A stretch of 64,000 nucleotides of DNA from Dyadobacter sp. CECT 9275 (lineage in GTDB: Bacteria; Bacteroidota; Bacteroidia; Cytophagales; Spirosomataceae), in assembly GCF_907164905.1 (NCBI RefSeq), contig NZ_CAJRAF010000001.1, positions 1,523,001 to 1,587,000 on the forward strand, given 5' to 3'. Below, in pieces: positions 1 through 63,040 of this stretch; positions within the stretch are counted from its first letter, which is position 1; the number at the start of each line of letters is the position of its first letter. A program made the translations under genes and the position numbers. The notes below the pieces were generated by a model, which was not told the DNA's origin, ran no database searches, and saw only the letters and a program-made list of their open reading frames with translations.

Positions 1-1041
1 ACTTTGATGTGCGTAACTTAATTCTCCATCCTTTTCCACCGGGCCTTCGTGTTGGGCAACGCCCTTTTTACCCATCAGTGCCAAGCCGATCATGATCCAG
101 ACAATTTCCCGGATCCGCATCACTACACCGATGAATATTCCGCCCGCCGCAGGCAATCCAACACTTTTTAAGGCCAGGGCAAGGCCCCCTTCACGGGTAC
201 CCAGCTGCATTGGGAAAAAGAATATCAGGTTGGCAAAAAGCGAAGACGCTGAACTGACGATCAATGCTTCTGTGAGAGACATATCCAACCCGATGGCAAA
301 AGCAGTGAAATAAATTTCCAGGCAGCCAACCACCCGCGCCACAAATTCCAGTACCAGGGATGAATAAAAGCGCGACCGGCGGTCGGCATAGAAAATCCTG
401 ATCTGATTGTCAATTTCATGCAGCGTTTCTTCTTTTTCGCGGGCAAAAATTTTCGCTTTTTTGCCAATCAGCGGTACCCGGCTCAGCAGATTAACGGTGC
501 TGACGGTGAATCCTTTTTTGTAAACCCTTATAAACCAAAATCCTAAAAGCAGACTGATGGCCAGCATCAGGCCGCAGCCCGCCAGCATGATGCTGTTGAC
601 CGGGATCACTGCCAGGATGAGACCGATAGAAACCACCCAGAATACAACGTGGGAAAACATATGCATGAGGCTGTACAATAGGACCGAAGAAGTGGCCTTG
701 TGTATACCCAGCCTGGGTTTGAGTTCCATAATGCGGTAAGGCTCACCTCCAAGTGCTACAAATGGTGTGATGTAATTGATGGCGTAACCGGAAATGGTCA
801 GTTTCAAAACGGATAGGAAAGAAAGGTCGGTTCGGGGGTGGCCGGGTTCATGGATCACGGCTTTGAAAGCAAAAGCATTCAGGATATAGATGACTAGCCA
901 GCTCCCGATGACAGGCACAAACCAGATACCCGTTTTCTGTATATTCAGCCATAGGTCTTCTACTCCGATGCCATAGATCATATAGCCCAGAGAGAATATG
1001 CCGATCAGCATAAAAATGGCTTTATATACTTTGGTACCCAT
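1..1041 (-). CDS. YbhN/UPF0104-type (LPG synthase TM region) membrane protein, C-terminus cut by window edge
   Basis: The frame is open from the ATG at 1041 to base 1 (347 codons), so the C-terminus lies outside. The translation begins MGTKVYKAIFMLIGIFSLGY and is a polytopic membrane protein with the features of the lysylphosphatidylglycerol-synthetase transmembrane (flippase-like) family: GYAINYITPFVALGGEPYR about 100 residues in, and FPMQLGTREGG near residue 285. Members of this family flip or modify polar lipids in the inner membrane; no soluble aminoacyl-transfer domain is visible in the part present. The start overlaps the end of the CDP-alcohol phosphotransferase gene by 20 bases, so the two are probably co-translated. 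In this context a role in moving the lipid product across the membrane is inferred, not shown. Confidence 0.8.
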   Translation of the reverse strand, partial: MGTKVYKAIFMLIGIFSLGYMIYGIGVEDLWLNIQKTGIWFVPVIGSWLVIYILNAFAFKAVIHEPGHPRTDLSFLSVLKLTISGYAINYITPFVALGGEPYRIMELKPRLGIHKATSSVLLYSLMHMFSHVVFWVVSIGLILAVIPVNSIMLAGCGLMLAISLLLGFWFIRVYKKGFTVSTVNLLSRVPLIGKKAKIFAREKEETLHEIDNQIRIFYADRRSRFYSSLVLEFVARVVGCLEIYFTAFAIGLDMSLTEALIVSSASSLFANLIFFFPMQLGTREGGLALALKSVGLPAAGGIFIGVVMRIREIVWIMIGLALMGKKGVAQHEGPVEKDGELSYAHQS

Positions 1042-1993
1042 ATTCTTTACTATTCGAAATCTTATTGTAGAAATATCCGCTCACTTTTTCCTGACGCACG
1101 CACATGTAGATCAGAATGGGGTTTAACACAAAAATATCAAAGAAGAAATAAACCCAGGCCTGGTCCATAAACAGCCACAAAAACAGAAACAAAACCCGGG
1201 TGTTGAACTGAATAATGTTGGTATACTTCATGAGCGGCCTGTTTTGAACCCGAAAATCCGTAATCAGGTTCGCTGGCAAACCGGCTCTGTATTTTCCGCG
1301 GATCAGCATCAGCAGTTTCTGAAGCCTGGGTGACAGGCTTTCCTGCAGATTGGTATAGTTGAGGTAAAAACGTGCCACCAGTTTCATGCCAAAATTCTGT
1401 GTCCATGTCAGCTGGTCGTACTCCCGTTGCAGCTCACGGCTGTTGTCCAACTCACTGCCCGATTTGCCTTTGATAAAAAACAGGTGGACATTCCGGTAAT
1501 AATCGGCCATAGCGGACTGTACTACGTGTGAAAAACCTGCTACTACACCCGGTATCCATATCAGGGCGGTCCAGCCTTCGTTCATACTTCTTAAACAAAT
1601 GGCAATGTGAATGGATATAAACCAGAAATCCCCGGCTGCACCGTCGAGTATCCTGCCCAGCCTGCTTTTGTTGTTTGTCATCCTGGCAAGCTGCCCGTCG
1701 GCGCTGTCCAGTGAGTTGGCAAACACCAGGGAGAGCATTCCAATGATATTAACTCCCAGATTCTGGCTGTAAAACAATATACCCGCAGCCACACCAAAAA
1801 AGATACTGATTATGGTTACCGTATTGGGGGTCATCCCGATTTTGGCACAGAACAGTGCGATCTGATACCCAATGGGGCGGTAAAACCATATATCAATTTT
1901 TTCCTCGGTATCATTCGATTTTAAGGAATTCTCGAATGAAGTTGTTTCTTGTCCGGCAAATGCAACGGTATCTTTCTTAGTCAGGTCGCTCAT
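1022..1993 (-). CDS. CDP-alcohol phosphatidyltransferase family membrane enzyme
   Basis: This 323-residue membrane protein carries the CDP-alcohol phosphotransferase signature: D96-x2-D99-G100-x2-A103-R104, then eight residues to G113 and D117. Family members exchange CMP of a CDP-activated alcohol or lipid for a hydroxyl acceptor at the inner membrane. The last signature aspartate, normally four residues after the third, is replaced by Gly121; an Asp lies one place later (D122). The flanking sequence is hydrophobic with several membrane spans. The start codon overlaps the stop of the ATP-grasp gene by one base (TGATG), and the 3' end overlaps the YbhN-like gene. Beside a nucleotidyltransferase and a ceramide operon, it could transfer a phospho-alcohol from a CDP-alcohol to ceramide. 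A phosphatidylinositol-phosphate-type synthase acting on CDP-diacylglycerol is the main alternative. Confidence 0.85.
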   Translation of the reverse strand: MSDLTKKDTVAFAGQETTSFENSLKSNDTEEKIDIWFYRPIGYQIALFCAKIGMTPNTVTIISIFFGVAAGILFYSQNLGVNIIGMLSLVFANSLDSADGQLARMTNNKSRLGRILDGAAGDFWFISIHIAICLRSMNEGWTALIWIPGVVAGFSHVVQSAMADYYRNVHLFFIKGKSGSELDNSRELQREYDQLTWTQNFGMKLVARFYLNYTNLQESLSPRLQKLLMLIRGKYRAGLPANLITDFRVQNRPLMKYTNIIQFNTRVLFLFLWLFMDQAWVYFFFDIFVLNPILIYMCVRQEKVSGYFYNKISNSKEYGYQSI

Positions 1994-2862
1994 CAGGCTA
2001 ATTTTGTGAATCTTTCAAATATTCTTTCGGCAATGTATCCGGCGGCTTCGTCCCGGCAAGGAGCAAAACTGGGCCAGTCGTTCAGGTCGATGATATGAAA
2101 ACTGCCGTCTTCGCCTACAATTGCATCACCTCCATAAATATCAATCCCCAGCACTTCGGCAGATGCGGCTGCTACCTGTTTTAGCTGATTTTCGTCAAAA
2201 GCATGGTACATCGACTTCCCGTTGATACTTTCGTAGGCCGCGTATTTATGGTGGTTGTTGTCGTAAGGATAAAACCAAAAGAAAAAGTCGGTATCATAAA
2301 CCCCGTAAAATTTCACAAGGTCACCCACGAGGTGTTCGGAAATGACGGCATCCGGGATGTCTCTCAGTGCATATTCTTTGATTATCTCCTTGGCTTCTTT
2401 TTTCGAATAGGCAAAAGTTACATCTTCCTTATGAATGGCATGAAAATCACCTCTTTTGATCCAGAATCCTTTTCCCGGTAACTGGTCAAAAACATCATCA
2501 CCGGTGTAGGTGGTGGGCACTACAAAACTTTTGGGGTAAGGTATCCCGTTGTCCACCAGCCCGTTGGTCATGTTGGTACGGTAACAGTTTTCAATTCCAT
2601 TTCCGGAGTTCACCACCACTACTCCGTTATATTCAAGAGTTTGTAGTTTTTTAACGGCATCTTTTTGCCTTGCCATGGTGAAAATGTATTGTTCCCCAAT
2701 ATGCTCACGGCTCAAAAAATCATCTTCCGAGCATATTCCCACCTTTGCGCCAAGGTTTTCAAGGGCTTTCATGGTGAGTGAAAAAATGGCATCGTCATTC
2801 CCGATATGGTTCGGCGAAAATTTCTTATTTCTGTGTATACCCAGGATGTCTATATCTTCCAT
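1993..2862 (-). CDS. ATP-grasp ligase (RimK-like), copy 1
   Basis: This 289-residue soluble protein has ATP-grasp features: a Lys/Arg motif WIKRGD at 134-139, an EH-containing strand with DLVKFYGV near 180, and a C-terminal metal-binding pair YGGDAI (D246) and IIDLNDWPSF (D259, N261). ATP-grasp enzymes join a carboxylate, as acyl phosphate, to an amine or other nucleophile. The substrate cannot be read from sequence. It lies between a nucleotidyltransferase (71-base gap) and a CDP-alcohol phosphotransferase (1-base overlap), which suggests it builds or decorates the activated alcohol, for example by adding an amino acid. A close paralogue is at 62047-62958; both start ME-x-x-x-IL-x-x-x-RNKK and share SPNHIGND and IIDLNDWPSFAPCR, which fixes the start used here. 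Confidence 0.85.
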   Translation of the reverse strand: MEDIDILGIHRNKKFSPNHIGNDDAIFSLTMKALENLGAKVGICSEDDFLSREHIGEQYIFTMARQKDAVKKLQTLEYNGVVVVNSGNGIENCYRTNMTNGLVDNGIPYPKSFVVPTTYTGDDVFDQLPGKGFWIKRGDFHAIHKEDVTFAYSKKEAKEIIKEYALRDIPDAVISEHLVGDLVKFYGVYDTDFFFWFYPYDNNHHKYAAYESINGKSMYHAFDENQLKQVAAASAEVLGIDIYGGDAIVGEDGSFHIIDLNDWPSFAPCRDEAAGYIAERIFERFTKLA

Positions 2863-2868
2863 AATGTG

Positions 2869-2901
2869 TAGCTGCAGCCTCCAGCGGGTAGCTCGCAGCT
2901 A
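2869..2901. repeat. Inverted repeat in the nucleotidyltransferase/ATP-grasp gap
   Basis: Arms TAGCTGC (2869-2875) and GCAGCTA (2895-2901) are perfect complements separated by 19 bases, in the 71-base gap between the two genes. It could form an mRNA hairpin that tunes expression of the downstream ATP-grasp gene or protects an RNA end. No run of T follows, so a simple intrinsic terminator is unlikely. Confidence 0.4.
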
Positions 2902-2933
2902 ATTAAATTGGTGTCGTTTTTTTGTTTTCCGGC

Positions 2934-3647
2934 TTAGGCCACAAATTCTTCGTTGAGGAAAAGCTCGGCTGTTTTTATATCTGCAACATGGTCCACATCC
3001 ACAATTTTGGAAAACGGATATGCTTTTAGTTGTAATTTATTCTCCAGTAGCTGGCGCTGAAAATTTCGCATCCTGCTTGTTCCTTCTTCAATGGCCTGGG
3101 TTACTACATCCAGTGCTTTTCCGCGTAAGCAGTACATCCCTCCAGAAACATAGGAAGTATGCTGGTGGTTGTCATCCGTAAAAGCTGTGATGTTTTTGTT
3201 GTCATCGGTTACAACAAACAAGGGACTTTCGTCATCAATGAACGTTGTAACGGCCATTAACCCATCTATTTCCTGATGTTTTTCAAATGTTTCAATAAAC
3301 GATCTGAATTCCGGTTCCCTGAACACGGTATCGGTAGTTGTCAGACACACTGAGCCGAGGTTTTTCGCACTTTTCAGTAGTTCATAAAAGCTGTGCAGAG
3401 AGCTTGGTGTAGACTTACGCACGATTTGTAAGGGCAGTTCGTAATCCGTTTCGGTCAGATGTCGTTCCAGTATTTCGGATTCCTCATTGATAATGATATG
3501 AATAGTCTCGGGATTGTTATTTTTGAAAACGCCGATCAGCCGGTCGATTAACGTTTCTCCGTGCAGGGTAACCATCGGTTTGGGAAGTTCGAAACCTTCC
3601 TTTGCCAACCTTGAACCTTCTCCTGCTGCTATAATTGCGTAATTCAT
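2934..3647 (-). CDS. Sugar/alcohol-phosphate nucleotidyltransferase (NTP_transferase family)
   Basis: This 237-residue protein begins MNYAIIAAGEGSRL with PKPMV about 12 residues later, the nucleotide-binding AAGxGxR...PKP signature of NTP transferases. A TTDTVF segment near residue 107 and VDVDHVADI near residue 222 supply likely metal-binding acidic residues. The length matches single-domain phospho-alcohol cytidylyltransferases of the LicC type (about 230 residues), which form CDP-alcohols from CTP and a phospho-alcohol, but nucleotide and substrate cannot be deduced. It lies 53 bases after the DUF5686 gene and 71 bases before the ATP-grasp gene. As the first gene of the presumed head-group module it would provide the activated alcohol for the CDP-alcohol phosphotransferase two genes on. 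That pathway role is inference. Confidence 0.82.
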   Translation of the reverse strand: MNYAIIAAGEGSRLAKEGFELPKPMVTLHGETLIDRLIGVFKNNNPETIHIIINEESEILERHLTETDYELPLQIVRKSTPSSLHSFYELLKSAKNLGSVCLTTTDTVFREPEFRSFIETFEKHQEIDGLMAVTTFIDDESPLFVVTDDNKNITAFTDDNHQHTSYVSGGMYCLRGKALDVVTQAIEEGTSRMRNFQRQLLENKLQLKAYPFSKIVDVDHVADIKTAELFLNEEFVA

Positions 3648-3700: not shown

Positions 3701-6259
3701 TTAAAAATCGAGCCTGAACCGCGCCCTGATCCCCCATTCCGAAACATTAGGATGATCCAGATAATTAAAACGTTTCACCAGATCCACCCGCAGCAGTTTG
3801 AAAATGTTGGCAACGCCTATGCTGCCTTCCATGTAAGGCTGCTTGTCCATGGTGTAGCTGATAGGCCTGCCCTGGTCGTCAACCGGGAACTGGTAAACTG
3901 ATGCGCCCTTAAGGGGGTTATTTTCATCACGTAATCCGCCAACGGCTGCCTTGAAACTGAATACTTCTCTCAATTTCAGCTTTTTGAGCAATGGGATTTT
4001 GTTAAACAGAAATCCGTTCATATAATACTGTACATCCAGACTGGCATAATGATCACTCACGAATTCCAGGAAGTTCATTAGGTTGTAGGAATTGAGCTGA
4101 TATGCATAGGTCTGGTTGGCGCGGTGTATCGTCAGCAACGGGAAGGGAATGTTTTTCCCGAAGATGTAGCCGCCTTCCGTCGTAATGTCCATAAAGCCCA
4201 GTTGAGACAGGTATATCCTTTTGGAAATATTGGCCGTTACATTGTGATAACTGTTCTCGCCGTTCAGCACACCTTTTAATCCGGCATTATACCGCAATGT
4301 GAAAATCGGGAATTTATTGATGATCGGGGTACGGTATAGTTTGCCCTGGTAGAACTGTTCGTTGGGGGCATACCTTAATTCCAGGTTTACCTCGGTGTTG
4401 CTCAGCTGAGCCACGGTGGGCTGACCGTCAATATGTTCCACTGGCTTGTATTCAAGTATACCCGCCGGGCGCTGGTTCCAGTGTGTGAAGCCAACTTTGT
4501 AGGAGAACCTGTTCTGAAATTCCCGCACATATTCTGCCTTATAGATATCGTTGTAAAGCCAGCGGTTGTTCTGCCCTCTTTTGAAAGACAGCAGGAAGTT
4601 ATCCTCCTGCACAAACTGGAGGTCCTGCCCGGGAATTTTTGTATCCCGCTGATAGCTGGCCCGGATGTAGTGCAGCGGAAAATGATATACAGACTTGTTG
4701 TTAAGCGAATAGGTTCCGCTCAGGAAATATTTCCACTTCTGGTCCTTAAAACCATAGGCCGCATAGGTCTCAAAAAATATCCGTTTACTGAGATCTGTGG
4801 TCGTACGCCCACCGAACCTTAACCGGAAACCCTCCACCGGATTGAAACTGTAAAAGGTATTCACAGGCCCTACTTCCACAATGTCAAAGGATTTATATCC
4901 TGCAAGGAAGAGAGAAGTGATGTCCATGGTGCGCCGGAAAGACGGAATGGTCTGCAGGGTATCAACGTTTCGATAAATATCTCTTTCAGACTTTTCCAGC
5001 GGAATATGTCTTACCTGCTGCCAGTAACTTTCCCCTGTTTTGATCAGCGGATTATAGATTGCCTGTTCTGCCGGGCCCCGGTAAACACTATCCGGCCTGG
5101 GCTGGTTTACTTCATAGTTTTTATAATTAACCACCCGCTGCCCGAACAGACCGCCACCCTTTTCGCCCAGCGCAAACTCCATTCCGAGTGTTGTTTTGCT
5201 CGGATGATAGCGGCCATCCGGACTTTTTTCAAATTCCAGACGTGCTTCCAGGTCTCTCATGAAATTGAGATTGATATCCTTATTTACCGTCAGATAGGCA
5301 TTTTGCACGGCGTAGTTTCCATCCAGCGTAATGAAGAGTTTCCCTTCAAACAGCATGTCTGTTTTGTTTCGGGGAACAAATCCCAGTTCTACCAGCCATG
5401 GTTCGTGTGTTTTTACGGTATCCCGTATAAAGTACTTGTAAAAAGTAGGAGCGGTATTGGCTATCGGGCTAAGCAGCAGGTTGGTGGCAATGGAGATATC
5501 ATTTTTATAAATATTGATATCCTCATACAGCCGGTTAAAATAGGCACTCAAGCCATCGTTGTCTACAAACCGTGCATCAAACTCAGCACGACGGTTCGCT
5601 TTCACCCACTGTTTTTTTGTATACGGATTTTTTCTGAAATATACCTGAGACAGTTTCTCCTGAATATAAGCCGGTAATATGTTTTTCCCGCCTATGGTGG
5701 AAGAATCCTGGTCTTTGAACAGGAACTGATAGTTGCGGAAAATACGGCGTTCCTTAAACTTGTCGGAAAGGTTGCTCAGTGCAAAAGAGATTTTCTCATA
5801 CTGCTCATATTCCGCAAAGTCATAATTAGCCATCTGGTTTTTATCCCGGTTTTCAATGACCTGGCGGATAAGCTGTACTGCCGGGTTATCCTTGTTCCGG
5901 TACCGGGCCCTGCCTTTTACCGTCACTTCTTTTAACATGGAAGCATCAACCTTCATCTTGATGTTGATCACCTGGTCAGCACCAACGGTTATTTTTTTAT
6001 CAATGCTCTCGTAGCCTACGTAAGTGAACCGGATGGCAGCGTAATTCTCCTTAAGAGTAAGTGCATATTTCCCATCTACATCCGCGGAGGTACCCATGGT
6101 GGTACCTGGAATGACAATGCTAACGTACGGCAGCGTTTCTCCGGTTTGTGCGTCGGTGATTACCCCTTTGATCGTGGTAGTTTGCGCAAGCACGCCTGTG
6201 CCTCCCAGAAGGAGTATACCGGCCATGAGGGCAAATCTTATGTATAGTGTCTTTAACAT
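3701..6259 (-). CDS. DUF5686 / carboxypeptidase-regulatory-domain outer-membrane protein
   Basis: The start is set at the ATG at 6259, because it directly precedes a signal peptide (MLKTLYIRFALMAGILLLGG, ending LAQ). An in-frame ATG 14 codons upstream would bury that signal. The mature protein opens with a carboxypeptidase-regulatory-like fold (TTIKGVITDAQTGETLPYVS) and continues as a DUF5686 protein of about 850 residues, rich in alternating aromatic strands and ending in RLDF, as expected for a beta-barrel with a terminal Phe. The family is widespread in Bacteroidota and its function is not established. It lies 109 bases after the ceramide reductase-like gene and 53 bases before the nucleotidyltransferase, between the two halves of the lipid locus, so a part in placing the lipid in the outer membrane is possible but unproved. 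Confidence 0.85.
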   Translation of the reverse strand: MLKTLYIRFALMAGILLLGGTGVLAQTTTIKGVITDAQTGETLPYVSIVIPGTTMGTSADVDGKYALTLKENYAAIRFTYVGYESIDKKITVGADQVINIKMKVDASMLKEVTVKGRARYRNKDNPAVQLIRQVIENRDKNQMANYDFAEYEQYEKISFALSNLSDKFKERRIFRNYQFLFKDQDSSTIGGKNILPAYIQEKLSQVYFRKNPYTKKQWVKANRRAEFDARFVDNDGLSAYFNRLYEDINIYKNDISIATNLLLSPIANTAPTFYKYFIRDTVKTHEPWLVELGFVPRNKTDMLFEGKLFITLDGNYAVQNAYLTVNKDINLNFMRDLEARLEFEKSPDGRYHPSKTTLGMEFALGEKGGGLFGQRVVNYKNYEVNQPRPDSVYRGPAEQAIYNPLIKTGESYWQQVRHIPLEKSERDIYRNVDTLQTIPSFRRTMDITSLFLAGYKSFDIVEVGPVNTFYSFNPVEGFRLRFGGRTTTDLSKRIFFETYAAYGFKDQKWKYFLSGTYSLNNKSVYHFPLHYIRASYQRDTKIPGQDLQFVQEDNFLLSFKRGQNNRWLYNDIYKAEYVREFQNRFSYKVGFTHWNQRPAGILEYKPVEHIDGQPTVAQLSNTEVNLELRYAPNEQFYQGKLYRTPIINKFPIFTLRYNAGLKGVLNGENSYHNVTANISKRIYLSQLGFMDITTEGGYIFGKNIPFPLLTIHRANQTYAYQLNSYNLMNFLEFVSDHYASLDVQYYMNGFLFNKIPLLKKLKLREVFSFKAAVGGLRDENNPLKGASVYQFPVDDQGRPISYTMDKQPYMEGSIGVANIFKLLRVDLVKRFNYLDHPNVSEWGIRARFRLDF

Positions 6260-6368
6260 TTTGTAATCGCAAGAGATTCTGTATTGTTTTCCATGGCGCA
6301 TATTTGTTCAGACCTTCCTGTTATCTGTCTGAAAAATGATTTTTCCGATACCAGCTTTAACCGTAAGG

Positions 6369-7375
6369 TTAAAGCCATTTGTTCGTGGTGTACCAGTCCA
6401 GCGTTTCCGCAAGACCTTTCTTTAAATTATATTGAGGCACATATTGCAGCTCATTGCTGGCCGCTTCTATACTGCAATACCAGTTTGCAGCCGTTAGTTC
6501 ATTCACTTTTTCCGTATTCAGAACCGGTGTTTTACCCGACAGAGCCGAAAATCCTTCCAGCAACGTGGCAACCATTCTGATCATCTTTACCGGAACATGG
6601 AACCTGAATAACTTTTTCCTCTTTAGTGCTCCAAACAGCTCTGACAATGCGTACCGGTCATATTCCTGCCCGTCCGAAATATTATAGGCGCGGTGCTCTT
6701 TTGATTCTCCGGCCACCAGAGCAGTTAATGTAGCTGTTACCAGGTCTTTCACATATACGAAACTCAGCCGCTGCGGTTTTGTTCCGATGTGCAGGTCGAG
6801 GCCTTTGTTGAGGGTCTTAAACAAGATAAAAATGTCCTTTTCGCCGGGCCCAAAAACGGCGGTTGGTCTTATAATAGTAAGCGGAAGCTCCTTTAAATCA
6901 GCCAGATATTTTTCAGCGAGTAACTTGCTTTTACCGTAGGATGTAACCGGAAAAGGTTTTGTTTCTTCGGTGATTTTTTGTGCTTCTGCATAGGTCCGTG
7001 GCCCGATGGCCGCCAGACTGCTCATAAATACAAACCTTTTGAGGGGTAGTCTGGCTGACAGTGCAGCTTCCGCTAGATGAAGTGTATAAGTTGCGTTGAC
7101 CAGATTGTAAGCTTCCCTATTTTTTGCTCTCGTAACCGCGGCTCCATGAATAATGTAGTCATACTGTCCCTCTTTCAAAAGAGGCTCCAATGTTTGCCGG
7201 GAGCTGAAATCCGGATAGACAAAAACAAGGGGTATAGTTGTTTCCATGGCTTTCAATCCTGAAATATCACTGGAAGGCCTCACACCTGCATGGACTTCAT
7301 AACCTCTTTCCAGCGCCTGCTGCACTAAATGATGGCCTATGAACCCACTTGCTCCGGTGATCAGTACCTTGCCCC

Positions 7376-7379
<4 letters not shown>
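6369..7379 (-). CDS. cerR: Extended SDR, probable bacterial ceramide reductase (CerR-like)
   Basis: This 336-residue extended short-chain dehydrogenase has the NAD(P)-binding TGASGFIG at 8-15, a serine pair near 120-121 (FMSSLAAIGP) and the catalytic Y148-x3-K152 (SYGKSK). Its start overlaps the stop of the GNAT-like gene by four bases (ATGA). SPT, a GNAT-type acyltransferase and an NAD-dependent epimerase-type SDR are the three enzymes known to make bacterial ceramide in Caulobacter, where the SDR (CerR) reduces the keto group. The gene order here, with both junctions translationally coupled, makes that role likely. The product could be N-acyl-sphinganine or, if the first enzyme uses cysteate, a sulfonolipid base. 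The symbol rests on context and fold, not on a database match. Confidence 0.75.
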
Positions 7380-9750
<2,371 letters not shown>

Positions 9751-9821: not shown

Positions 9822-10433
9822 TCAAGAATTGAACAAATAATTGGTAACCATCCCGATAACATGGTTTTTATGTGTTTCGGTATATTCGTAAAATTCGGAT
9901 TCAGACATGTTATGCATTTTCATGTGCATTTTCTTGCCGACAAAAATAAACTGGATACTCCCCAGAATGATCGGCATCAGATGCTCGGGTTCGATATTCC
10001 GTATGCCTCCACGCTTCACCTCTTCCTGTATAAGCCCGATCAGTTTCCTGCTCAGGAGCTCCTTGTACATGGATATTTCTGACAGAAGATTTTCGCAGTC
10101 CCTATGGATTTCGTTCATAATGAACAATACCAGGGTAGGTTCCTGCCGCATCATCCGATAATCCTCTTCAATGATTTCTATTATTTTTTCCTTCAGACTG
10201 ATCGGCTGGTCTATGATTTTGAGGGTGTTAGTGCAGTATATGGAAAACAGGTCCTTGAATATTTCAATAAACAGCTTTTCCTTACTTCTGAAATAGTAAT
10301 TGGTGAGGGCAATGTTCATTCCTGCAGCATCGGCAATATCCCTGGCCGTTGTGCCGGTAAATCCTTTCTTAAGAAAAACAGACTTCGCTGCGTCCTTAAG
10401 CTTCTCTTCACTGGATTGATTGATACACTTCAC
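9822..10433 (-). CDS. TetR/AcrR family transcriptional regulator
   Basis: This 203-residue protein starts with a GTG at 10433. Its N-terminal helix-turn-helix is typical of TetR regulators (KGFTGTTARDIADAAGMN, then LTNYYFRSKEKLF, about residues 23-60); the C-terminal two thirds is an alpha-helical ligand and dimer domain. It lies 122 bases upstream of spt on the same strand, in a position to control the sphingolipid operon. Two candidate operators are visible: a nested repeat over the spt promoter (9712-9746) and a palindrome 71 bases upstream of its own start (10504-10525). They do not share an obvious core, so at most one may be its site. A lipid or acyl-CoA ligand would be a natural guess but nothing in the sequence proves it. 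Confidence 0.88.
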   Translation of the reverse strand: MKCINQSSEEKLKDAAKSVFLKKGFTGTTARDIADAAGMNIALTNYYFRSKEKLFIEIFKDLFSIYCTNTLKIIDQPISLKEKIIEIIEEDYRMMRQEPTLVLFIMNEIHRDCENLLSEISMYKELLSRKLIGLIQEEVKRGGIRNIEPEHLMPIILGSIQFIFVGKKMHMKMHNMSESEFYEYTETHKNHVIGMVTNYLFNS

Positions 10434-59665: not shown

Positions 59666-60508
59666 TCAATAATCGATGATGCTCTTCAATACCTTGCCAT
59701 CCACTATTTTCAGCAGGACAAAAGCATCCTGTTCGTACGCATAACTGGTGATGTAACGAACATGGTCATCATAGGGGTAAAAATCTCTGTGCTCATGCAC
59801 ATGGCCGTGAAGTGATACAAGCAAATTCGGTGTCTGGCTCAAAAGCCGGGTGTAAGGGCCTTCAAGGTCAGTGTTGAATTCGTCTGGGCTAAAGGGCGGT
59901 ACGTGCGAAACCGTGACGATATGTTTCACGTTGGCGGCAGGTTTCAGTGCATTGCCCAGCCAGTTCATATCCGGTACCTTCCTGAACTTGTACTCGAGGC
60001 TGTTGGTATTGTGGGTCACAAACCGGATGCTGTCATAAACAAATGAAAGATTCAGTGGCCCGAACATTTTCTCGAAAACGACTTCTCCATTGGCCACCAG
60101 ATCATGGTTGCCGATTACGCCGATGTATGGTTTGCTGAGTTTTGCCAGGCGGCTGTTAACCCACTCAAATTCCTGCAGAAGCCCAAAATCGGAAATGTCT
60201 CCCGCCAGTAAAATGAAATCTATTTCCGGCAGGGTATTGGCCTTTTTTACAAAACGGTCGATGTGAGCATAAAATCGCTGGGAATCTCCGGTGAAGGCGA
60301 TGGTCACGGTATCATCGGCATTCCGGCCTAGTTTGGCAATGTTCTTTTCGTTGAGATTAACGGGAGAGTTCCGGTCGCTGGTCTGGTTAGGGCTAAATTC
60401 AAAAGCGTTGCAGCTCCCTAGAAACAAGGCCAGGATAAAAAAACTGTTGCGCGCAAAAGCAGGGTGCTTTAATACGTGCAACAGCAGATATTTTACAATC
60501 GTTTTCAC
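59666..60508 (-). CDS. Lipoprotein metallophosphoesterase (calcineurin-like)
   Basis: This 280-residue protein starts with GTG at 60508. A hydrophobic segment ends in a lipobox (LFLGSC), so it is probably a lipoprotein facing the periplasm. The metallophosphoesterase core has FTGDSQ, LAGDISDFG, VIGNHDLV, SHVPPF and LHGHVHEH, a complete metal set. It follows the ICMT-like gene by 17 bases and precedes the small barrel gene by 4. In this operon it may trim a phosphate or a phospho-head-group from a lipid or a periplasmic metabolite. Confidence 0.85.
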   Translation of the reverse strand: MKTIVKYLLLHVLKHPAFARNSFFILALFLGSCNAFEFSPNQTSDRNSPVNLNEKNIAKLGRNADDTVTIAFTGDSQRFYAHIDRFVKKANTLPEIDFILLAGDISDFGLLQEFEWVNSRLAKLSKPYIGVIGNHDLVANGEVVFEKMFGPLNLSFVYDSIRFVTHNTNSLEYKFRKVPDMNWLGNALKPAANVKHIVTVSHVPPFSPDEFNTDLEGPYTRLLSQTPNLLVSLHGHVHEHRDFYPYDDHVRYITSYAYEQDAFVLLKIVDGKVLKSIIDY

Positions 60509-60525
60509 AGCATTATATCAAAAAA

Positions 60526-61254
60526 TTACGATAAAATCTCGGTCATTTTTCCCGATTTTTTGAGGTACCTGACGTAGCCGTAGGCCAGCCCCAGCAGGAT
60601 TACTATGGCGCCAAATAGCCAGTTTCGGTTGGGCGCGTTATATGTTAATTCCGGATATTTGAACAGCAGCAAGGCAGTGATACCCACCAGCCACACCAGC
60701 AGGGTATTGTACTCTTTCAGGATCCATCTTTTGTAATTGAACCGCATTCCGGCCAGGGTATCTGAAATTCCATCGAAGCTGAACCACCAGCGGTTCACTT
60801 TCTGGCAGTAATTATCAAACTCAGCACCAAATTTATTGCGAAGAAAATTCTCTTCTGCCAGCACAATGGCCTGATAGATAAACAAGAAAAACGGTATGAC
60901 CAGCCCAACATACAGTAGCGAATTGGAAAGTATTCCGGCTCCGAGCAGCATCATTATATTACCCACATACAGCGGGTTACGGCCATGCCGGAAAATGCCC
61001 TCGGTCACCAGCTTTTCGGCATATACTTTCTTATCGCGACCACCGCGGATGATATAGGCCAGCCCGATGGTGGCTGCCCTGATGGCCTCTCCGGAAATGG
61101 TGATCAGCAGTCCGAGGATGATCGGGATTAAATAATAATTTTCTCCCCACCCGGCAGCTGTAAACAGGGCAGGTGAAGGAGCAAAAAGAAGCAGATATAG
61201 GAAGATGAATAAATTATTCCTGTAACGAAAGAAGAAGTTTCCGATGGCGATCAT
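60526..61254 (-). CDS. ICMT/PEMT-like membrane methyltransferase
   Basis: The start is placed at the ATG at 61254, which overlaps the CmoA-like stop by four bases (ATGA); a GTG 12 codons upstream would overlap it by 40. The 242 residues hold about six membrane spans. The C-terminal part has the signature of isoprenylcysteine carboxyl methyltransferase / phospholipid N-methyltransferase proteins: FRHGRNPLYVGNIMML, then EENFLRNKFGAEFDNYC. These enzymes methylate a carboxylate or amine on a lipid-like substrate at the membrane, using SAM. Coupling to a second SAM enzyme and an ATP-grasp ligase suggests a membrane-bound modified product. Confidence 0.83.
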   Translation of the reverse strand: MIAIGNFFFRYRNNLFIFLYLLLFAPSPALFTAAGWGENYYLIPIILGLLITISGEAIRAATIGLAYIIRGGRDKKVYAEKLVTEGIFRHGRNPLYVGNIMMLLGAGILSNSLLYVGLVIPFFLFIYQAIVLAEENFLRNKFGAEFDNYCQKVNRWWFSFDGISDTLAGMRFNYKRWILKEYNTLLVWLVGITALLLFKYPELTYNAPNRNWLFGAIVILLGLAYGYVRYLKKSGKMTEILS

Positions 61255-61997
61255 TGTTTGGTAGCGATTATTCCTGAAAAATTGTACCACTTGAAAAACG
61301 TTTCGCAGTGGGTAAAACCGGATTCATGGAGGAGTTCTACATTTTCAGATAATTTGTAAGGGATTAGAACATTTTCCAGGGCCTCGCGTTTCTGTGATAT
61401 CTCCAGCTCGCTGTAATCCCGGCGGCGTTTGTAGTCGTAATAGTATTTGATGAAGTCCCGGTTAAAAACGCTGTTTTCCGCCAGTACCTTTTCTACGAGT
61501 ATCAATACACCTCCCTGGTTTAACCCTTCATAAATATTTTTGAGCAGTTTGCTGCGGTACAGCGGGCGCACAAACTGGAGTGTCAGACAAAGTATTACTA
61601 CGGAGGCATTTTGAATGCGGGGCTGTTGATGGAGATCGTCGACGAGCAGCTCGTACGGACGGGTAAGACCGGCTTCCTTCAGTTTTATGTCGCATTTGCT
61701 GATCATTTCTGCCGATTCATCAATACCGATAAAGGGGATATCCTGTGGAACGAGCTCGTTAAGGCCAATTAAGGTTGTGCCCGTAGAACAGCCCAGATCG
61801 TAAATACTTGTGCCGGGCAATGCGTGGTCGGCAGCCAGTTCCGCAACCATGCGCTGGATTTCGCCGTAGTAGGGGACAGAACGGTTCACCATGTCGTCAA
61901 AAACATTGACAACCCTGGTTCCGAATTTAAAATCTGAAACTTTGGTGATCTCGTCTCTGAAAACAGCGTCCTGCTCCTGACTATTGGATCTTTTCAT
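61251..61997 (-). CDS. CmoA-like carboxy-SAM synthase / SAM-dependent methyltransferase
   Basis: This 248-residue protein is close to E. coli CmoA in length and motifs: the N-terminal DFKFGTRVVNVFDDM with NRSVPYY, SAM motif IYDLGCSTGTT, TLQFVRPL, and the C-terminal YSELEISQKREALENVL, which in CmoA holds the Arg contacting the added carboxylate. CmoA converts SAM and prephenate to carboxy-SAM; its usual partner CmoB then modifies tRNA uridine-34. No CmoB is nearby. Instead this gene sits between an ATP-grasp ligase (49-base gap) and an ICMT-like enzyme (4-base overlap), so carboxy-SAM or a related donor might be used on another substrate. An ordinary methyltransferase with CmoA ancestry is the alternative. 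Confidence 0.78.
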   Translation of the reverse strand: MKRSNSQEQDAVFRDEITKVSDFKFGTRVVNVFDDMVNRSVPYYGEIQRMVAELAADHALPGTSIYDLGCSTGTTLIGLNELVPQDIPFIGIDESAEMISKCDIKLKEAGLTRPYELLVDDLHQQPRIQNASVVILCLTLQFVRPLYRSKLLKNIYEGLNQGGVLILVEKVLAENSVFNRDFIKYYYDYKRRRDYSELEISQKREALENVLIPYKLSENVELLHESGFTHCETFFKWYNFSGIIATKQ

Positions 61998-62046
61998 AGT
62001 TTTTAATCATCATAATTGGTGTTGATGTTCCCTTGCTTATCTGATA

Positions 62047-62958
62047 TTACCAGACATTGTTCTGGGGCAGTTTATGTCTGATAGGTTCCCTTGTGTTTTC
62101 GGTGAATCTGTTGAAAACAGCGGAGGCAATATAGGGTGCGGCTTCTTCCCGGCAGGGGGCAAAGCTAGGCCAGTCATTCAGGTCAATGATTTTGAAATTG
62201 CCGTCTTTGTCCACAATCGCATCGCCGCCGTAAACTTCCACACCCACCGCTATTGCGGCTGCATTGGCTATTACTTTCAGTTTTTCAGTATCAAATACAT
62301 AATGAGAAGCCTGTCCGTTGATATTCTCGTAGTCGGTATATTTGTGGTGTTTATTTTCGAAGGGATAAAACCAGTAAAAAAATCCCGAGCTGCGCACACC
62401 GTAAAACTTGACGAGATCCCCGGTCAGATGTTCGGAAACCAACGCCTCCTGGATATCACGCAAACCATATTCCCGCAGGATCTCATGCCCTTCCTGCCTT
62501 GAACTTACAAATGTTACATCCTCCCGGTGCATGGCGTGGAAATCACCCCTCTTCACCCAGAACTGCTGGAACGGGAAACCGTCAAAAACCCCGGCATCGT
62601 TGTAAAATGTGGAGACCACCAGGCTACGGGGCACTGGAATATTGTAATATTCCAGTGCTTTGTGCATGTTGATCCGATACGAATTTTCGATACTAAAGCC
62701 CGAGTTGACAACTTTTGCCCCACGGTATTCCAATGACTGCAATTTTTTTACGACCTGTTTCTGGCGGGCCATGGTCATGATATGCTGAGATCCGTTCTGT
62801 TCCTGAGCAAGGAATTCGTCCTCATCGTAAAGCTGGATTTTGCAGCCCATTTTCTGTAATTCTGCCAGCGTCAAAGAGAATATCGCCTCGTCGTTCCCAA
62901 TATGATTGGGAGAGTATTTTTTATTGCGGCTCACCGCCAGTATTTCTAAATGTTCCAT
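62047..62958 (-). CDS. ATP-grasp ligase (RimK-like), copy 2
   Basis: This is a paralogue of the ATP-grasp gene at 1993-2862. The start is set at the ATG at 62958 (MEHLEILAVSRNKKYSP, 303 residues) because it aligns with the start of the paralogue, and because the upstream extension would run into a hairpin. Shared features are SPNHIGNDEAIFSLT, FWVKRGDFHA, EHLTGDLVKFYGV, VYGGDAIV and IIDLNDWPSFAPCR. It carries about 15 extra C-terminal residues. It is the first gene of the operon with the CmoA-like, ICMT-like, metallophosphoesterase and barrel genes. Substrate unknown; the similarity to copy 1 suggests related substrates in two pathways. Confidence 0.85.
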   Translation of the reverse strand: MEHLEILAVSRNKKYSPNHIGNDEAIFSLTLAELQKMGCKIQLYDEDEFLAQEQNGSQHIMTMARQKQVVKKLQSLEYRGAKVVNSGFSIENSYRINMHKALEYYNIPVPRSLVVSTFYNDAGVFDGFPFQQFWVKRGDFHAMHREDVTFVSSRQEGHEILREYGLRDIQEALVSEHLTGDLVKFYGVRSSGFFYWFYPFENKHHKYTDYENINGQASHYVFDTEKLKVIANAAAIAVGVEVYGGDAIVDKDGNFKIIDLNDWPSFAPCREEAAPYIASAVFNRFTENTREPIRHKLPQNNVW

Positions 62959-63004
62959 GTTAATCGGTACTAAGTTTATCTGAACGGGATAGGTTAATCT
63001 GCTT

Positions 63005-63040
63005 ATTTGAAACTGATATGAATGCATCTCAGTTTCAAAT
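63005..63040. terminator. Strong stem-loop downstream of the RND gene
   Basis: ATTTGAAACTGA (63005-63016) pairs perfectly with TCAGTTTCAAAT (63029-63040); an inner ATG/CAT adds three pairs. It lies 52 bases after the RND stop (minus strand) and 46 bases before the ATP-grasp start, so it probably terminates or stabilises the pump transcript and separates the two units. Confidence 0.6.

Follow-up and report, generated by a model that had tools for sequence, protein, structure and literature searches.

Among bacteria, inositol lipids are relatively rare, and they are of importance to the fitness of Bacteroidota living with hosts; B. vulgatus and P. veroralis produce phosphoinositol dihydroceramide, as stated in the available text of Heaver et al. 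2022 (PMC9246714). The same text describes, in B. vulgatus and Prevotella, a putative alternative inositol-lipid cluster, with functions given as unconfirmed, in which a nucleotidyltransferase (NTP transferase), a CDP-alcohol phosphotransferase (CDP-OH) and a HAD hydrolase lie together next to an inositol-phosphate synthase (MIPS). The CDP-inositol route proposed for it is still called predicted in the consulted part of a 2023 review (PMC10191378), which cites a hyperthermophile pathway with CDP-inositol as head-group precursor (Jorge et al. 2015). The other system to be compared, BT_1522-BT_1526 of B. thetaiotaomicron, employs a PIP synthase with CDP-DAG, a PgpA phosphatase and an AUR1-like synthase. 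The present analysis concerns a window of 64,000 nucleotides from Dyadobacter sp. CECT 9275 (bases 1523001-1587000 of contig C1 of its genome, G000), whose first four genes, coding for an NTP transferase, an ATP-grasp protein, a CDP-OH enzyme and a flippase-like protein, very probably belong to a sphingolipid operon and serve there to attach an inositol-phosphate head to a lipid.

These genes are intact open reading frames on the - strand: the NTP transferase (2934..3647; Pfam, NCBIfam and neighbourhoods), a predicted CTP:inositol-phosphate cytidylyltransferase; the ATP-grasp protein (1993..2862; profile, residues, predicted structure and fusions), possibly inositol-phosphate-kinase-like; the CDP-OH enzyme (1022..1993; Pfam, NCBIfam and motif), a predicted CDP-inositol:lipid phosphoinositol transferase; and an LPG_synthase_TM-like membrane protein (1..1041; Pfam), the flippase-like gene, which is cut by the window start and encodes 355 amino acids in full (L003:9974-11041). 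The Pfam E-values are 1.4e-12 for NTP_transferase, 2.6e-11 for CDP-OH_P_transf and 4e-25 for LPG_synthase_TM. The order on the - strand is TetR, serine palmitoyltransferase (SPT), GNAT-like protein, SDR, DUF5686, NTP transferase, ATP-grasp, CDP-OH and flippase-like protein. Beyond window base 1, in the genomic stretch L003, the same strand continues with the end of the flippase gene, a HAD hydrolase, a PfkB kinase, DUF4833 and FA_hydroxylase, the genes being 54, 15 and 1 bases apart or slightly overlapping. Judging from this spacing, the run presumably forms one transcript. An earlier note had placed a CDP-alcohol head-group module of four genes in a ceramide operon. This is borne out, and the roles it gave the NTP transferase and CDP-OH enzyme fit. 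The genes are in fact the middle of a longer operon, and four of six in the module, since HAD and PfkB lie outside the window; an ATP-grasp paralogue at 62047-63027 had also been overlooked.

The grouping of NTP transferase, CDP-OH and HAD, with its proposed CDP-inositol route, is common to the window module and the cluster of Heaver et al. as available in PMC9246714, as are LPG-synthase-like and carboxypeptidase-regulatory-like neighbours. The earlier note's statement that no described pathway has this set was therefore too strong. New with respect to that cluster, as far as the available text describes it, are the linked ATP-grasp gene (a term with 0 occurrences in the main text of PMC9246714), PfkB in place of the MIPS next door, and the setting inside an spt operon. 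Fusions of NTP transferase with ATP-grasp and of flippase with HAD are also new, as is a variant with aminotransferase, dehydrogenase and Mla genes. The B. vulgatus locus tags given there (13095 for NTP transferase, 13105 for CDP-OH and 13115 for HAD) leave room for one gene between NTP transferase and CDP-OH.

The inositol-lipid module is real and conserved. Its surroundings were compared in 93 ATP-grasp entries, taken from a best-match list and from samples across Bacteroidota; L003, a copy of the window, was left out, and L052 repeats L078, so that 92 are distinct. Within 9 kb of the ATP-grasp gene lie an NTP transferase in 93 entries, CDP-OH in 89, HAD in 86, a flippase in 69, MIPS in 49, SPT in 35 and PfkB in 32. 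CDP-OH was not found within this distance in L128, L134, L135 and L141. The seven entries missing HAD are four cut contigs (L093, L116, L120, L147), the window, whose HAD lies outside it, and L128 and L135. Counting labelled families only, NTP transferase immediately precedes ATP-grasp in 91 of 93 loci, an arrangement not due to chance; Mla genes were left unlabelled in this count and intervene in eight loci. One of the two misses, the window, is an artefact of its second ATP-grasp gene, which leaves L139 as the sole real exception. Of the 93 loci, 79 contain MIPS or PfkB (both in L124 and L127, from Parapedobacter). The 14 with neither include the window (PfkB outside), the cut L093 and L120, and L063, which has MIPS elsewhere in its genome.

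A scan of named genomes gave 594 candidates and at least 550 relatives; the best 80 of the 550 stretches encoding an ATP-grasp relative are weighted towards close relatives and represent Dyadobacter, Runella, Larkinella, Rhabdobacter, Sphingobacterium, Olivibacter, Pedobacter, Parapedobacter, Dysgonomonas, Parabacteroides and others. ATP-grasp matches occur in 12 of 296 genomes of a phylum sample, all 12 with a CDP-OH relative of at least 42% identity, in 12 of 395 of a class sample (8 clear, 4 weak and partial), and in 21 of 149 of an order sample around G388 (18 clear, 3 weak). G388 is the exception among the nine class-sample genomes with a strong CDP-OH match, the other eight of which also carry ATP-grasp. 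The viral contigs scanned with ATP-grasp held no relative. In the 17 new loci of the order sample (L200-L216), NTP transferase and HAD are each found in 15, MIPS in 14 and SPT in 3; L205 and L215 are cut contigs, and L208 is without NTP transferase and HAD. L212 was considered as a HAD fusion without NTP transferase and rejected, as the frames are separate genes and NTP transferase is present. The module of G443 is split, with ATP-grasp and NTP transferase at L158 and CDP-OH, HAD and MIPS at L157. HAD was not found in eight loci (L064-L071, of which L069 is a 5.4-kb contig) that have a CDP-OH relative without ATP-grasp.

The module is widely tied to inositol phosphate supply, and to ceramide synthesis in some lineages only. 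In the group of the window (Dyadobacter, Runella and Larkinella, assigned by NCBI taxonomy to Spirosomataceae, and Rhabdobacter, assigned to Cytophagaceae), all 33 entries carry SPT, none carries MIPS, and 30 carry PfkB, the other three being cut. The other 60 entries comprise 2 with SPT, both Parapedobacter, 49 with MIPS and 2 with PfkB. The survey of spt co-occurrence that the earlier note had called for thus came out positive in the window's group (33/33) and two Parapedobacter loci and negative elsewhere (2/60 in all), and a general spt linkage was rejected. An SPT search was of no use as a sign of sphingolipids in other genomes: it matched 20 of 20, 3 above cut-off, and 11 of 14 controls, E. 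coli included, also matched.

Further evidence comes from the ceramide-operon frame itself. In the window, all on the - strand, it comprises SPT (8494..9714; NCBIfam NF047600, 723.7 bits against a cut-off of 640), the GNAT-like protein (7376..8497; weak Pfam acetyltransferase match, 0.011; bCerS-like by position alone), an NAD-dependent epimerase/SDR (6369..7379; Pfam; cerR-like by position alone) and DUF5686 with a CarboxypepD_reg-like domain (3701..6301; Pfam), which recurs beside inositol-lipid modules of both types. The MIPS model matches 31 of 395 class-sample genomes, 30 above cut-off, and 27 MIPS neighbourhoods were read besides L053, L157, L159 and L161, the weak match of G577 being dropped. 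Nine of the 27 (L165, L167, L170, L174-L176, L182, L185, L187) show SPT, GNAT, MIPS, one or two small genes and DUF5686 in that order, with a labelled SDR after GNAT in five, a PIP-synthase-like gene in eight, DUF4833 in seven and a fatty acid (FA) hydroxylase in eight. These loci are the frame of the window operon holding a different inositol module, of PIP-synthase type. The BT_1522-BT_1526 system shares with the window's predicted pathway an end in phosphoinositol lipids and a phosphatase partner, and differs in its genes: the window operon has NTP transferase, ATP-grasp, CDP-OH and HAD, and none of its genes is a PIP synthase, PgpA phosphatase or AUR1-like synthase. The shared frame is a good argument for similar roles of the two modules. 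ATP-grasp genes were also seen within PIP-synthase-type clusters in L128, L141 and L208, with PgpA-, GtrA- and AUR1-like neighbours recognized by eye.

The PfkB kinase has the TM0415 structures as its closest solved relatives (6e-26; next different kinase 3e-14). TM0415 itself uses pyrophosphate (PPi) to phosphorylate myo-inositol and contacts inositol through D11, N78, Q141 and R145, according to the available text of PMC5931981. All four are kept in the window's PfkB in a HMMER alignment, as expected of a myo-inositol kinase of the TM0415/MI3K kind. The PPi-dependent signature (K171, F221, R229, R232, M266) is broken, with R229 replaced by Ala and R232 by Cys. Since the inositol contacts are kept and these two arginines are replaced, the window's PfkB is predicted to be an ATP-dependent inositol kinase. 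S89 of TM0415 is Gln in this protein; in a TM0415 homologue with Gln at this position the product is not Ins(1)P (PMC5931981, available text).

MIPS was not found in the window operon. That the genome is without any inositol-phosphate synthase was considered and rejected: the PF07994 search was empty, but a weak protein match proved to be an unlinked INO1 homologue of mycobacterial type (L162:1245-2459, G000 contig C4), with 307.5 bits to TIGR03450 (cut-off 638), 81.4 bits to PF01658, above cut-off, and 6e-85 to the inositol-3-phosphate synthase 1gr0. Genes resembling transposases by eye lie near it. In 21 genomes of the window's group carrying the module, out of 31 such named loci, the homologue is present in six at 83-87% identity, as a weak partial match in one, and not in 14. 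Runella aurantiaca (G190/L078) gave no match to any of three synthase queries.

The CDP-OH enzyme has inositol-phosphate lipid synthases as its best NCBIfam matches, far under the cut-offs (50.5/180 and 35.9/170), and scores 26.2 bits against PIPSynBT1523 (cut-off 350). In the motif D..DG..AR...G...D...D, the fourth Asp is lost in all 95 ATP-grasp-linked sequences (two duplicate pairs included), being Gly in 94, the window's among them, and Ser in one; of 90 residues read at the following position, 72 are Asp, 17 Asn and 1 Ser. A further 16 linked sequences from the order sample have Gly, and second copies in L210 and L211 have Asp. Eight distant relatives without ATP-grasp keep the fourth Asp, and four closer copies without ATP-grasp in their locus lack it. 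The motif of Heaver et al., DX2DGX2AR...GX3DX3D, which finds the B. vulgatus enzyme, does not match the window's CDP-OH. As that pattern, in the available text, includes the fourth Asp lost here, the two enzymes may belong to different subfamilies. L066, with CDP-OH, MIPS and a weak NTP transferase match together, resembles the hyperthermophile pathway as cited in PMC10191378, although to regard its source as such an organism is a guess; it differs from the window module in having no ATP-grasp or HAD match and in keeping the fourth Asp.

The head group can be taken with considerable assurance as inositol-derived. It is most likely inositol made through CDP-inositol, because of the linkage to MIPS and PfkB, the TM0415-like character of PfkB, and the PIP-synthase-type module in the same SPT-GNAT-DUF5686 frame. 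Another phospho-alcohol, or phosphoglycerate, is very improbable in view of the dense linkage to MIPS, inositol-kinase-like PfkB and PIP-synthase-type modules, even though the nucleotidyltransferase family is promiscuous and a related cytidylyltransferase can serve ceramide head groups, as exemplified by Caulobacter CpgD, a COG1213 nucleotidyltransferase that is needed for a ceramide lipid and makes CDP-glycerate for its head group (available text of PMC12275187). Taken as a whole, a phosphoinositol-headed sphingolipid made by a CDP-inositol route is the explanation we favour, by a modest preference. The gene families, their conserved order, the ties to inositol genes, the fusions and the conserved residues are shown; the substrates of all steps, ceramide as acceptor and a kinase/phosphatase relay are what we infer. 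SPT, GNAT and SDR would supply ceramide, which is likely the main acceptor in this organism. PfkB would phosphorylate myo-inositol, a supply that MIPS would provide as inositol phosphate in many relatives. The ATP-grasp protein would phosphorylate the soluble inositol phosphate a second time ahead of cytidylylation, the NTP transferase would activate the product with CTP, and the CDP-OH enzyme would move phosphoinositol onto the lipid, giving an inositol phosphoceramide-like product from which HAD would strip a phosphate and which the LPG_synthase_TM protein would probably move. Such a route, from Ins(3)P through second phosphorylation, CDP transfer, lipid transfer and dephosphorylation, would yield the usual D-1 linkage. 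The relay in that exact form is only tentatively proposed.

The order of steps rests partly on fusions. A single open frame holds both NTP transferase and ATP-grasp in L213 (519 aa) and in L216 (545 aa), and another joins flippase to HAD in L207 (583 aa), all in draft genomes. Gene fusions often join consecutive pathway steps, which places ATP-grasp near cytidylylation and HAD near the lipid step. An alternative would have HAD act at the outset, releasing free inositol from the MIPS product for the ATP-grasp protein to re-phosphorylate at another position, without a doubly phosphorylated intermediate. The co-occurrence of HAD and ATP-grasp would agree with this, as would the NTP-ATP-grasp fusion, which fits a kinase just ahead of cytidylylation; the inositol-kinase-like PfkB kept in the operon by the window's group would then be redundant, and the fusions of HAD to flippase (L207) and, in P. 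veroralis, to CDP-OH (available text of PMC9246714) point to a late lipid step, making this order improbable.

For the ATP-grasp protein, a kinase is slightly preferred to a ligase. The protein has no Pfam match, and its matches to RimK-family NCBIfam models are below cut-off (31.8 bits to RimK/LysX TIGR00768, cut-off 143.4); nor does it match PF05770 (ITPK, inositol 1,3,4-trisphosphate 5/6-kinase). Its predicted structure (pLDDT 93) has the ATP-grasp fold, which it shares with ITPKs and with RimK/LysX ligases. A profile of the catalytic half favours inositol phosphate kinases (7.1e-5 and 1.3e-3) over the listed ligases (0.11 and 0.66), and the metal motif is D-x-N, as in ITPKs, where the ligase 7drm has E-x-N. 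The fusions in L207, L213 and L216 and the eight CDP-OH loci with neither ATP-grasp nor HAD also speak for a kinase. The earlier note had an ATP-grasp ligase adding an amino-acid-like unit, a claim that is weakly founded at best, as the partners are inositol-phosphate genes. In that form, a RimK/LysX/PsnB-like carboxylate ligase would esterify or amidate the inositol head with an amino acid, giving an aminoacylated phosphoinositol lipid. Fold comparison does put LysX, ArgX and RimK ligases first, 7drm (PsnB) leads the PDB sequence matches of query A2, and 18 family members yield three weak RimK and two weak ITPK matches with equal best E-values near 0.005 (ITPK 0.0048); tandem ATP-grasps also stand alongside an aminotransferase in four of seven loci of other classes. 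The core module, however, has no amino-acid or amine gene, and ATP-grasp is fused to the nucleotidyltransferase rather than to a lipid-step enzyme. With profile and metal residue also opposed, this reading is rather unlikely, and the linked ATP-grasp protein may instead be an inositol-phosphate kinase. Several points nonetheless count against the proposed route. The fold comparison does not separate kinase from ligase. Two observations speak against the relay: ATP-grasp sits with PIP-synthase-type genes in L208, L128 and L141, and the HAD motif, which reads D-[FY]-G-G-T in 71 of 88 sequences, lacks the second Asp usual in HAD phosphatases. The Km of TM0415 for inositol is 12 mM, so that its real acceptor may differ (PMC5931981, available text). 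Among the papers listed on sphingolipids with ATP-grasp, CDP-inositol, inositol phosphoceramide, amino-inositol lipids, sphingolipids of Dyadobacter and Spirosoma, and bacterial ATP-grasp inositol phosphate kinases, no title or abstract opening describes this ATP-grasp gene.

The module takes another form in other classes. In L054 and L056-L061 the order is NTP transferase, MlaE, ABC ATPase, MlaD, ATP-grasp (two in four loci), class III aminotransferase, CDP-OH, GFO/IDH/MocA oxidoreductase, flippase, HAD and MIPS, the families having been tested on L056; L062 carries the Mla genes but lacks the amino genes. The nearest match of the oxidoreductase is inositol 2-dehydrogenase, under cut-off (75 of 355 bits). 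This gene content suggests an amino-inositol head group with dedicated lipid transport. The terms 'aminoinositol' and 'inosamine' were not found in the papers listed by a literature search on amino-inositol lipids. A joint reading, with a relay of phosphorylation, activation, transfer and dephosphorylation in Bacteroidota and the amino-inositol/Mla variant in other classes, is rather doubtful.

Upstream of SPT lies a TetR-family regulator (9822..10433, - strand; Pfam). A promoter scan gave 15 sites against 15.0 expected, which is chance level, and 18 terminator-like sites (shuffle mean 9.9) are scattered over both strands. The second ATP-grasp paralogue (62047..63027, - strand) is 59% identical to the first and is followed, within 59666-63027, by a class I methyltransferase, a PEMT-like phospholipid methyltransferase and a metallophosphoesterase. 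The same two methyltransferases come after the main operon in many Dyadobacter loci, and a similar phosphoesterase comes after HAD in several Parabacteroides loci. The genome carries a second serine palmitoyltransferase (G000:C2:36937-38118; 704 bits, above the NCBIfam cut-off). The module is also carried by Sphingobacterium detergens CECT 7938 (L105); for another strain of this species, inositol phosphoceramide is named only as a possible species, without proof, in the available text of PMC12724326.

With this cluster, the CDP-inositol route, as yet unproven, has a defined set of genes on which it can be tested, and the exchange of two inositol modules in one ceramide-operon frame clearly exemplifies pathway displacement. 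Knowing the substrate of the ATP-grasp protein would settle whether it stands for a bacterial inositol-phosphate kinase or for an aminoacylated inositol lipid. The cluster also suggests how Runella aurantiaca, in which no synthase was found, could make such lipids from scavenged inositol.

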